This document shows positions 1,847 through 4,581 of a stretch of 64,000 bases of DNA, piece by piece (the first letter of the stretch is position 1; the number at the start of each line of letters is the position of its first letter). The notes beneath the pieces were generated by a model, which had not been told where the DNA came from, did not search any database, and saw only the letters and a program-made list of their open reading frames with translations. The stretch is from Sulfitobacter brevis (GTDB lineage Bacteria > Pseudomonadota > Alphaproteobacteria > Rhodobacterales > Rhodobacteraceae): NCBI RefSeq assembly GCF_900112755.1, contig NZ_FOMW01000009.1, forward strand, positions 1 through 64,000, read 5' to 3'. Made by a program: the position numbers and the translations under genes.

Positions 1847-1884
1847 CGCTGCCCGGCAGTCGATACGCAGTATCGATGAGAGGG
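1847..1884 (+). repeat. Small hairpin insertion, copy 1 (38 bp)
   Basis: This is an extra 38 bp inside IS-A orfA. Layout: CGCTG, CCC, GGCA, then stem GT+CGATAC, loop GCA, stem GTATCG+AT, then GAGA, GGG. The inner stem is perfect over CGATAC/GTATCG. The flanking coding sequence reads KDIKRA before and RKHYSSEEK after, so a simple insertion is the easiest explanation. The exact left edge is uncertain by a few bases because a C also appears to have been gained near 1842. Confidence 0.75.
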
Positions 1885-2011
1885 GCGCAAACATTATTCA
1901 TCCGAAGAGAAGATCCGGATCGTGCTGGATGGCCTGCGTGGCGAAGACAGCATTGCCGAGCTCTGCCGTCGTGAGGGCATCTCTCAAGGCATCTATTACA
2001 AATGGTCCAAG

Positions 2012-2048
2012 CACTGCCCGGCAGTGCATGTTTACATGCATGAGAGGG
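2012..2048 (+). repeat. Small hairpin insertion, copy 2 (37 bp)
   Basis: An exact 37-bp insertion between the codons AAG and GAC of IS-A orfA (YKWSK|DFIEAGKRR). Layout: CACTG, CCC, GGCA, stem GT+GCATG, loop TTTA, stem CATGC+AT, GAGA, GGG. No target duplication is visible. It puts orfA out of frame without itself adding a stop in the incoming frame. Confidence 0.85.
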
Positions 2049-2119
2049 GACTTCATAGAGGCTGGCAAACGGCGTTTGGCAGGCGATACGGCTTGACCTG
2101 CCCCCCGAGGCTCCCTTAT

Positions 2120-3045
2120 TCATAACGAGAGTTTGCGGGTCTGGGTTTCATATTCTTCGTCGTCAGTTTGGGCAAGCGCGTCGTGCGCGGAGCCCTCAAA
2201 TTGCTCAAGCGCTCGACGCGCTTCTGCCGGTGTTTGGTTCCCAAGCGATGAGTGCGGCCTGACGTTGTTGTAGTCGTATCGCCAGAGTGCCAGCTTACGA
2301 CGGGCGTCATCCAACGTATCGAAGATTTCCTCATTCAACAGCTCGTCCATTGCCCGGCAGGTGATTGCAAAGCAATCTGCCGAGAGGGTCGCAGGCTGCC
2401 ATTGAAGCTTTCTATGAAGGCATTCTGCTGGGGTTTGCCGGGGTCGATGTAATGCCAATCAACGTCGTTATCACCGGCCCATTTTAGGATCGCACGACTG
2501 GTAAACTCCGTGCCGTTATCACTGACAATGCAGGCAGGCTTTCCATAAATACGGACAAGCGCGTCAAGTTCCCGCGCGACACGAGCGCCCGAGATGCTGG
2601 TGTCAGCCACCAAGCAGAGGTTCTCGCGGCAACAATCGTCGTTTACAGCCAGCATGCGGAACTTGCGTGACGCACCAAACGTATCAGACACAAAATCCAG
2701 CGACCAACGTTCACCTGGCCGCAAGGCCACCGGCATGGGCGTGCGCGACCCACGTGCGCGCTTGCGGCCCCTTCGCCGCCTGACGCCCAGCTTTTCGTCA
2801 GTATAAAGCCGATACAGCTTTTTGTGGTTCATGATCATTCCTTTGCGTTCCAGAAGCACGCCGATCCGGCGATAACCGAACCGACGCCGCTTGCTGGCAA
2901 TCGCTTTCATCTCTTCGCGAACTTCTGGATTATCCGGCGGCCGATCACGCCGGACAGTCTTGGGATCGACACCGACAAGCCTACACGCCCGACGTTGCGA
3001 GATGTCGTGATCCCGCATTGCCTTGCGTGCTGCAGCCTGTCGCAC
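2120..3045 (-). pseudogene. IS-B transposase OrfB (DDE integrase core), interrupted by hairpin copy 4
   Basis: Starts MRQAAARKAMRDHDISQRRAC with an HTH_21-like region, then the DDE integrase core. The catalytic residues are visible: Asp in WSLDFVSDTF, Asp in CIVSDNGTEF, and Glu in NAFIESFNGSLR. Immediately after GSLR (about 2389) the 41-bp hairpin copy 4 breaks the frame. The expected tail DELLNEEIFDTLDDARRKLA continues on the other side to the TGA at 2120-2122. Without the hairpin this would be a complete transposase of normal length, so hairpin insertion is the only visible lesion in this gene. Confidence 0.88.
2348..2388 (+). repeat. Small hairpin insertion, copy 4 (41 bp), antisense to IS-B orfB
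   Basis: Read on the plus strand: CATTG, CCC, GGCA, then stem GG-T-GATTGC, loop AAA, stem GCAATC-TG-CC, GAGA, GGG. It lies exactly between the codons for GSLR and DELLNEE of IS-B orfB, in the orientation opposite to that gene. It is the only one of the five copies in antisense orientation to its host gene, which argues against a role that depends only on translation in the sense strand. Confidence 0.85.
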
Positions 3046-3056
3046 ATTCGGTGTCG

Positions 3057-3361
3057 TCAGCTCTTTCCCAGCAAATCTTTCAACACAACATTATCGAGCA
3101 TCGTGTCGGCCAGCAGGCGCTTCAGCTTAGCGTTCTCATCTTTCAGCGATTTAAGGCGGTGGGTATCAGAAACGTTCACTCTCGGGACATCGCTACGCGA
3201 TACCCTGCCGTGCAATGCATGCCGCCATACTTGGCTTTGAACTTGTAGAACGACGCAGGGCTGAGGCCATGCCTGCGGCACACCTCAGCTGTCGGCATCC
3301 CAGCTTCTTGTTCTTTGATCATTCCGATAATTTGGGCTTCAGTAAAACGGCTCTGTCGCAT
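3057..3361 (-). pseudogene. IS-B transposase OrfA, interrupted by hairpin copy 5
   Basis: A helix-turn-helix OrfA. The ATG at 3361 follows GGAG by seven bases and gives MRQSRFTEAQIIGMIKEQEA, then AEVCRRHGLSPASFYKFKAKYGGM. The hairpin copy 5 follows (3177-3217), then NVSDTHRLKSLKDENAKLKR and MLDNVVLKDLLGKS to the stop. The second half is the leucine-zipper region of IS3 OrfA. The insertion falls between the two domains and shifts the frame. Confidence 0.85.
3177..3217 (-). repeat. Small hairpin insertion, copy 5 (41 bp)
   Basis: Read on the minus strand: CATTG, CAC, GGCA, stem GGG-T-ATCGC, loop GTA, stem GCGAT-GT-CCC, GAGA, GTG. The outer stem is CAC/GTG here where the other four copies have CCC/GGG, a paired change. 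It is inserted after the codons for KYGGM of IS-B orfA and in the sense direction of that gene. Confidence 0.85.
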
Positions 3362-3564
3362 TTGTTTGCTCCTTCGAAGGTTGAGCAAACTCTACATTAA
3401 ACTGAGGGAAGTTTCGGGGGGCAGGTCAGGCTCGTGCCGCAAACACTGACGAGGTGAAGGACCTTCGCCGCGAAGCCCGTGACCTGAAGGAAGTTGTGGC
3501 GGAACAAACGCTGGAACTTCGCTTGCTTAAAAAAAAGCCTGCTGGGAGATGGGGGCGACCACGA

Positions 3565-4581
3565 ATGAGGTATCTACTACCCGGCAGTCGCTGTTTACAG
3601 CGATGAGAGGGCGGCACCTGAAAAGTTAGAGATCATCCGGCTGGTCGAAGAAAGCCACCTGCCAGCGCGCCTGACGCTGGCCAAATTGGGCATCCCCCCA
3701 CCACGTTCTATCGCTGGTACGACCGATATCTGCAGCGTGGCGAGGCCGGATTGCAGGATCAATCTCCCAAGCCTAAACACGTTTGGAACCGCGTGCCCGA
3801 TGACGTGAAGCGCAAAGTCGTCGACTTCGCCTTGATAGAGACAGAGCTGTCGCCCCGCGAACTGGCAATGACGTTTACAGATCAAGAGCGCTATTTGGTC
3901 TCTGAATCTACTGTGTATCGCGTGCTCAAGGCGCAGGACCTGATTACCAGCCCGGCGTTCATCGTGCTCAAGGCCGCGAGTGAATTCAAAGACAAGACGA
4001 CAGCCATCAACCAGCTTTGGCAAACTGACTTCACATATATCAAGGTCCTCGGCTGGGGTTGGTTTTACTTCAGCACGGTTCTCGACGACTACAGCCGCTA
4101 CATCGTCTCTTGGAAGCTCTGCACCAACATGCGGGCCCAGGATGTAACAGACACATTGGACCTCGCATTACAGGCGTCTGGCTGCGATCAGGTCCATGTC
4201 GTCCATAAGCCACGTCTGCTCAGTGATAATGGATCCAGCTATGTCTCAGGCGACTTGGCAGAATGGTTGAAAGACAAGGGCATGAAGCACTCGCGCGGTG
4301 CGCCGTATCATCCCCAAACGCAGGGCAAGATTGAGCGGTGGCACCAGACATTGAAGAACCGCATCTTGCTGGAAAACTACTTCCTGCCGGGTGACCTCGA
4401 AGCGCAAATCGAAGCCTTCGTCGATCATTACAATCATCAGCGTTACCACGAGGGCCTGAACAACGTCACACCCGCCGACGTCTACTTTGGACGGGACAAA
4501 GCCATTCTACAGCAAAGGGAAAGGATCAAACGAAAGACACTCGAAACGCGACGCTTGCATCACAGACAACGCGCCGCATAA
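3565..4581 (+). pseudogene. IS-A transposase OrfB, broken by hairpin copy 3 and a one-base deletion
   Basis: The ATG at 3565 overlaps the orfA stop and gives MRY, then hairpin copy 3 (3575-3611), then PAPEKLEIIRLVEESHLPAR. A C-run near 3693-3698 has six C where seven are needed to continue into TTFYRWYDRYLQRGEAGLQD, so one base has been lost. From 3751 the frame is open to the end and holds the DDE triad: WQTDFTYIKV, LLSDNGSSYVS and GKIERWHQTLKNRI. The protein ends normally (RRLHHRQRAA). It can no longer be made from its own start. Confidence 0.88.
3575..3611 (+). repeat. Small hairpin insertion, copy 3 (37 bp)
   Basis: An exact 37-bp insertion in the fourth codon of IS-A orfB; the flanks ATGAGGTATC and CGGCACCTG rejoin to MRYPAP. 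Layout: TACTA, CCC, GGCA, stem GT+CGCTG, loop TTTA, stem CAGCG+AT, GAGA, GGG. It is the same length and loop as copy 2 but the inner stem sequence is different. Confidence 0.85.

Follow-up and report, generated by a model that had tools for sequence, protein, structure and literature searches.

The five short hairpins that interrupt transposase genes in a 64,000-nucleotide (nt) stretch of Sulfitobacter brevis DNA (contig NZ_FOMW01000009.1, positions 1 to 64,000; hereafter the window) are copies of a family of 37 to 43 nt hairpins, which sit in these genes without target duplication. With a probability of roughly 0.6, we regard this family as a non-autonomous mobile element whose moving form is a folded single strand, the required enzyme being provided in trans. 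An initial annotation of the window had proposed a very small mobile hairpin element, which is now well supported by precise empty sites, by many independent positions and by compensatory changes that keep the structure.

The window inserts are found in two nested elements of the insertion sequence (IS) family IS3. The outer element (1744-4640, plus strand; Pfam rve and rve_3) was delimited by blastn against uninterrupted plasmid copies (query 5-2901) and by alignment. It is split by the inner element (2094-3430, minus strand; Pfam rve, HTH_21 and HTH_Tnp_1), which was likewise placed by blastn against plasmid copies and alignment. Inserts 1 (1847-1884, plus strand, 38 nt), 2 (2012-2048, plus strand, 37 nt) and 5 (3575-3611, plus strand, 37 nt) lie in sense orientation in the outer transposase gene and appear as gaps when aligned with relatives of the outer element on two Sulfitobacter plasmids and one Octadecabacter plasmid (L027-L029). 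Similarly, insert 3 (2348-2388, plus strand, 41 nt, antisense to the inner gene) and insert 4 (3177-3217, minus strand, 41 nt, sense to the inner gene, with the outer stem variant CAC/GTG) are missing in relatives of the inner element on plasmids of Aliiroseovarius, Rhodobacteraceae S2214 and Phaeobacter (L030-L032). A covariance model built from 12 copies (R1) recovered all five inserts where they had been annotated, with 55.1, 52.2, 47.8, 47.0 and 43.8 bits for inserts 1 to 5. The flanks of all five meet directly in the uninterrupted relatives and target duplications are absent. An uninterrupted reading after removal of the insert had been claimed for four of the five, and indeed clean junctions result for copies 2 to 5 (with an ambiguity of 1 nt in copy 2 and of up to 2 nt in copy 4), while copy 1 is off by one base. 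The outer element shows additional small insertions and deletions in the alignment with its relatives and therefore resembles a dead gene.

The five hairpins are unlikely to be a chance accumulation of a short motif. The pattern CGGCAG-N8..34-GAGAG matched five times in the window with 1.07 matches expected, and none of 100 shuffled versions reached five. As had been annotated, R1 found no sixth copy in the 64 kb (next best match E 0.097), but 14 further copies are located elsewhere in the genome, i.e. 19 copies at E < 0.001 including those of the window; a pattern search of the genome gave 21 matches, compared to six for the reversed pattern. Rfam models applied to window positions 1500-4700 gave two sub-threshold matches, neither of them at a hairpin, and hence no assignment to a known structured RNA family. 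Two outcomes had been named in advance as speaking against the proposal, namely the same sequences in intact IS relatives and the lack of further copies in any genome; neither occurred.

The covariance-model search of further genomes revealed a large family, mostly in or beside transposase genes, for which uninterrupted alleles exist. At least one hairpin was detected at E 0.01 by R1 in 133 of 295 Rhodobacteraceae genomes, whereas a class-wide sample contained only 10 carriers among 385 genomes at E 1e-4, four of them again Rhodobacteraceae. A strict full-length pattern was present in all of 15 high-copy genomes, whereas the reversed pattern used as a control was found in none of them. In 400 kb of control DNA, a loose pattern matched once, in a chance-like manner. 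At least 118 stretches of named GTDB contigs match the exact pattern and, judged by their titles, 75 of the 80 matches listed belong to Rhodobacterales, the others to Vreelandella (two), Labrenzia, a Hyphomicrobiales metagenome-assembled genome (MAG) and an unplaced alphaproteobacterial MAG. Furthermore, the commonest 41-mer matched 97 plasmid records at E 0.01, among which the 60 listed are all Rhodobacterales by name; carriers include plasmids of Ruegeria pomeroyi DSS-3 and Dinoroseobacter shibae. Among 50,697 phage records one weak partial match was obtained. The bacterial family from which the 295 genomes were taken is Rhodobacteraceae in the wide sense. Copies outside Rhodobacterales, which were seen in Vreelandella neptunia (L202 and L231) and Labrenzia (L212), with L202 beside an IS3-type gene, probably arrived with transferred IS elements. 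Five contigs of IMG/VR (L389-L393) also match the pattern exactly.

For the analysis of structure and insertion sites, 150 of 188 model hits entered the alignment. Sites with short flanks (20, 40 or 60 nt, depending on the script) were dropped, and locus L226 was excluded from the scripts using joined flanks. Similar flanks were collapsed, which reduced the first set from 150 to 103 sites, a second set found by pattern only from 129 to 96, and the combined set from 199 to 183 independent sites; the two sets overlap slightly.

The consensus reads YRYTR-CMC-GGCA-G-variable stem-loop-(T or C)-GAGA-GKG, and the motif YRYTR-CMC-GGCA-stem-loop-GAGA-GKG derived initially from the window copies was correct. 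The hairpin is most often 41 nt long (90 of the 183 independent sites), followed by 37 (31), 40 (24), 38 (22) and 39 nt (14), with one site each for 42 and 43 nt. Any copy whose length is not a multiple of three will disrupt the reading frame at its site. Multiples of three are missing among the five window copies, as had been noted initially, but not in the family, since 39 or 42 nt were found at 15 of the 183 sites and a frame-shifting length at the other 168; a frame-breaking length as a rule is ruled out by the common 39-nt hairpins (14 of 129 in one set). The structure itself is strongly kept. Watson-Crick pairs account for 1237 of the 1327 stem pairs (closing pair excluded) in 178 distinct hairpins that are 37 to 41 nt long, while exchanging the 3' arms among hairpins of equal length gave on average 904 and at most 950 such pairs in 1000 trials. 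The three outer pairs are CCC/GGG in 161 of the 178 hairpins, and compensated alternatives exist in seven (CAC/GTG in three, ACC/GGT in two, CTC/GAG and CCT/AGG in one each). Moreover, mismatches in the stem are more often G.T than A.C (37 versus 17, p 0.009), with 63 versus 0 at the closing pair. Since G.T exceeds A.C, these sequences suggest that the strand as written, rather than the duplex, is selected to fold. One copy (L012 1485-1534; G000 C35, approximately 32003-32052) is an overgrown inverted repeat of 16 bp around a 4-nt loop, which looks as though its stem had taken up a duplicate of the left target flank.

At the 183 sites the hairpin follows a weak CRTC^R motif, in which C at -4 precedes a purine (A or G) at -3, and T at -2 and C at -1 are followed by G or A. 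The target information is confined to positions -5 to +2 and amounts to approximately 4 bits, without extended similarity around the sites. Among the hairpin-bearing loci, a hairpin-less relative (IS of less than 97% identity) was available for 173 of 235 distinct sites, and for 122 of them the alignment runs without any gap across the junction, so that neither a target duplication nor a loss of target bases accompanied these insertions. For two sites, an empty copy is available that is 98 to 99% identical to the filled one. In Puniceibacterium antarcticum SM1211 the same sequence occurs on two contigs with and without a 40-nt hairpin, the two being 98.9% identical over 88 nt. The lack of target duplication in the 122 gapless alignments, and of a parent element in the loci read, also separates the family from miniature inverted-repeat transposable elements. 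An insertion into the loops of target hairpins seemed convincing by eye and is ruled out, because pairing between the two flanks equals that of shuffled pairings.

The same nucleotides have been hit repeatedly. Among the 235 distinct sites, 114 pairs with less than 97% flank identity share their junction, and 44 of these pairs contain clearly different hairpins (another length or at least eight differences). For example, the flanks of L237 and L240 are 91% identical, and their hairpins differ at 10 of 37 positions, each being fully paired. Because three intact IS copies contain 87 to 118 effective motif sites, chance coincidence should be about 1%; the filled share of the homologous comparisons is 16%, a value partly due to shared descent. 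Several hot sites, for example LLI^DSTG, TVMI^DAT and RNR^IEI in IS5-type genes (the caret marking the junction), fall on codons that presumably surround catalytic residues. We do not claim a selection for active sites, and the codon phase across all sites equals the motif prediction. In IS110-like elements (L069, L136, L139, L220, L222, L249 and L315) differing hairpins were seen at what seems to be one shared site, located in some of them approximately 140 nt from the recognised transposase match.

The initial statement that the hairpins hide in transposases is strongly confirmed. A transposase match is no more than 60 nt away from 144 of the 183 independent sites and no more than 300 nt away from 165 of them, compared to 1 and 3 of 600 control sites. 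These controls were chosen from the 3054 motif-like sites that occur in 20 stretches (20 kb each) of carrier genomes. The seeds of this search were transposase fragments, many of them taken from the hairpin loci themselves; when the pattern-only set was scored with the seeds of the first set, 68 of its 96 sites had a match at a distance of up to 60 nt and 78 at up to 300 nt, with the same seeds giving again 1 and 3 of the 600 controls. Pfam detected a transposase or transposition domain in each of 20 seed or flank fragments, a few of them below the curated cut-off (rve, DDE_Tnp_1 and relatives, Transposase_mut, DDE_3, Y2_Tnp, IS110, IS66, IS240, HTH_38, HTH_Tnp_1 and IstB). According to labels assigned by reading these matches, the putative IS families hit are IS3, IS5, IS6, IS21, IS30, IS66, IS91, IS110, IS256, IS481, IS630 and IS1182. 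For the 144 sites no farther than 60 nt from a match, the hairpin is in sense orientation to the gene in 60 and antisense in 84 cases.

How the hairpins affect their hosts can be seen in one IS3 element of genome G013, which bears four hairpins, two per orientation; this genome has at least six copies of the element, each 1385 bp long, that differ at no more than 20 positions. Their coding differences comprise 11 that change an amino acid and 3 that are silent; the number is small, and the ratio is as expected when the transposase gene is no longer kept. In view of this near-neutral change, the gene is likely disrupted by its hairpins; the IS has multiplied nonetheless, presumably through transposase acting in trans from intact relatives.

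We propose the mobile hairpin because compensation keeps the structure although the host gene seems not to be under selection, and because precise insertion has occurred at many new sites. With the host gene apparently unselected, the structure would most simply be maintained by the hairpin's own propagation, and it is the asymmetry between the strands that suggests movement in the form of a folded single strand. The excess of G.T over A.C suggests that the enzyme would read the folded strand as written, and movement might proceed by cutting and joining of single-stranded DNA at the RTC^R step. The enzyme itself would be encoded elsewhere and act in trans. Persistence could be explained if IS elements ferry the hairpin between genomes and insertions elsewhere get lost. 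The concentration in transposase genes may reflect survival combined with carriage by IS elements, or else true targeting.

Several observations weigh against a mobile hairpin of this kind. In 10 hairpins the outer stem is altered without a Watson-Crick partner; the predicted DNA folds of the five window copies are modest and only slightly better than those of shuffled sequences (z -1.3 to -2.9); and in energy folding several copies favour a small 5' hairpin, CTGC-CCG-GCAG, over the CCC/GGG outer stem. The profiles Y1_Tnp, Y2_Tnp and RVT_1 (reverse transcriptase) revealed no accompanying enzyme in the 295 Rhodobacteraceae genomes, and a search for lone 5' half-sites in 15 genomes, with 20 loci read, gave no gene-bearing or larger hairpin-ended element, these loci being variant hairpins or chance-like sites. 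Survival and carriage by IS do not easily account for 90% of the sites lying in or beside transposases, and the recurrence at the same nucleotides could partly represent in-place replacement of hairpins or shared descent. Furthermore, 18 of the 183 sites are more than 300 nt away from any transposase match or unmatched, some of them in or near other genes, and genome G108 harbours a related subfamily in ordinary intergenic DNA with the shared longer flank AAATAAACTC, so that the preference for transposase genes does not extend to all relatives. The loci of this subfamily (L371-L373, L376-L380, L128 and L129) mostly have an upstream stretch resembling that flank and are often situated near a gene end; the subfamily might be a terminator or an ancestral form of a repetitive extragenic palindrome (REP). 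A few loci of G409 and L205 are likewise intergenic, without the exact flank.

One further point against the proposed mobile hairpin is that genomes with a Y1 transposase gene are more often carriers (24 of 31 versus 109 of the 264 without; odds ratio 4.9, p 0.0002), which favours another explanation, namely that we are dealing with an ordinary REP in an unusual home, moved by an HUH transposase of the Y1 type (TnpA-REP/RAYT or IS200-like). Size, hairpin shape, the missing target duplication and the single-strand signature all fit, and some of the G108 relatives are intergenic like REPs. Nevertheless, we consider this explanation unlikely. The conserved 5' end contains neither a GTAG nor a CGTC tag. 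Only 31 of the 295 genomes have a Y1_Tnp match, the high-copy genomes G262, G067, G013, G075, G250, G002, G245, G108, G246 and G218 not being among them, and hairpins were detected at only one of 10 Y1 loci examined. The two hairpins at that locus, one a strong and one a weak match, lie by reading in IS110 and IS5 remnants flanking the IS200-like gene. Y2_Tnp, found in 29 genomes, is linked as well (carriers 20 of 29 versus 113 of 266), so that a Y1 gene may simply be a sign of a genome with much mobile DNA; for reverse transcriptase genes, found in 81 genomes, there was no clear excess (43 of 81 versus 90 of 214). None of the three enzymes is necessary by co-occurrence, as 70 of the 133 carriers have no match to any of them, including G262 with at least 22 model hits; 109 of the 133 lack a Y1 match and 90 of the 133 a reverse transcriptase. 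The initial suggestion that the hairpins are by-products of a single-strand-specific transposase or integrase agrees with their anatomy, but its enzyme was not found.

Alternatively, a dedicated system could steer the hairpin into transposase genes and thereby disable them, either protecting the genome or as a parasite on a parasite, in a guided or homing-like manner. Closeness to transposase matches of at least 10 families, different hairpins at the same nucleotides of related IS, and the predominance of frame-shifting lengths speak for such steering, and it keeps some weight because the same nucleotides recur and copies are scarce elsewhere. It appears quite unlikely in view of the low information content of the target motif and its lack of extended similarity, the continued multiplication of hairpin-laden IS and the 15 lengths divisible by three; moreover, no guide or guiding gene was identified. 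A bolder version, in which a homing-type, gene-less hairpin of about 40 nt is directed to conserved coding sequence in transposase genes of at least 10 families and silences them as the smallest known transposon parasite or brake, with a recombinase of an undescribed kind reading the GGCA/GAGA internal loop, is rather doubtful as well.

The assumption that only a few, old true insertions occurred is improbable. Here, the variety at the same site would have arisen by exchange of hairpin arms in place (conversion or template switching), and spread by IS transposition and gene transfer. This is in line with the near-identical hairpins in many same-site copies, with the same set of four hairpins in the six copies of the G013 element and with the quasi-palindromic overgrown copy of L012. 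Against it stand the 183 sites left after collapsing similar flanks, the empty copies at 98 to 99% identity, and pairs with 91% identical flanks whose hairpins differ at 9 or 10 positions with both arms changed together.

We practically discard the initial idea of an RNA-level element, which would be excised from the transposase message or bypassed in it. In its favour, the segments between the four hairpins of the G013 element are by reading free of stops and further frameshifts, and of the 44 inserts with the same frame on both flanks, 29 fall between codons (81 sites were scored on both flanks, which disagree in 37). However, phase 0 was found at only 56 of 133 scored sites overall, as the motif alone predicts (0.42 to 0.49), which leaves no codon-phase preference, and the mixed orientation of the family and the near-neutral change of the G013 copies match neither the sense orientation nor the preserved protein of translational bypass.

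The proposed mobile hairpin has to be compared to known systems. Very small, dispersed mobile repeats of cyanobacteria were reportedly described by Elhai et al. in 2008. The mobile translational bypass elements of yeast mitochondria are short hairpin inserts within genes, which are known in sense orientation only and are tolerated by translation; our hairpins differ in their use of both orientations and in the near-neutral change of their hosts. Group II introns often reside in bacterial IS elements and likewise cause no duplication, but the hairpins are far too short for ribozyme domains and most carriers lack a reverse transcriptase match. Elements of the IS200/IS605 type insert beside a short directional motif without duplication, and both features are shared by the hairpins. 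A folded single strand is described as their substrate (PMC6006769). Differences are the strict tetra- or pentanucleotide target and the TnpA (Y1) enzyme of IS200/IS605, compared to a motif of about 4 bits and the many carriers without a Y1 match, and that the whole element here consists of one hairpin.

REPs are described as imperfect palindromes of 20 to 40 nt with high copy number, mainly intergenic and GTAG-tagged, for which movement as a hairpin by a Y1 protein is hypothesised (PMC3733652, PMC6006769). The hairpins resemble this REP/RAYT description as small imperfect palindromes of high copy number. Unlike it, they lie mostly in transposase genes (except for the G108 subfamily), begin with YRYTR-CMC in place of a GTAG (or GTGG) foot across 178 distinct hairpins in five length classes, contain the near-invariant GGCA/GAGA internal loop, and showed no repeat-flanked cognate gene at the Y1 loci examined. 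The CGTC-tagged REPs of Alphaproteobacteria are small palindromes without a known dedicated transposase, with a CGTC tag and a CCA tail, whose closeness to transposase genes is deemed fortuitous there (PMC3733652). The hairpins share the small palindrome in Alphaproteobacteria and the lack of a known dedicated transposase, but the consensus of each length class contains neither the CGTC tag nor the CCA tail. Hence, the family stands beside REPs and other tiny palindromes, yet it lacks their defining tag, location and cognate transposase and is not placed in any named family. Searches among open-access papers, judged on titles and the beginnings of abstracts, gave no apparent description of it.

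Downstream of the nested elements, the window contains a DNA methylase gene (4851-11280 for the whole locus; Pfam N6_N4_Mtase), the frame of which stops at 7061, and an overlapping frame (6809-7963) seems to be its continuation. The following open reading frame of 1105 amino acids (7963-11280) resembles, judged by reading, a type III restriction subunit. This locus is possibly a frameshifted or phase-variable system.

Taken as a mobile element, the hairpin represents a kind of tiny mobile DNA that is widespread in a large bacterial family and apparently undescribed. Its structural signature is clear, its insertion point is defined, and copies exist in well-studied strains. The spread of gene-less palindromes thereby becomes testable, i.e. 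which factor moves a 40-nt hairpin and why it is mostly found in transposases. If targeting were true, the hairpins would provide a natural means of disabling insertion sequences; if survival alone explains their location, they would be a gauge of how strongly cells purge small insertions elsewhere.

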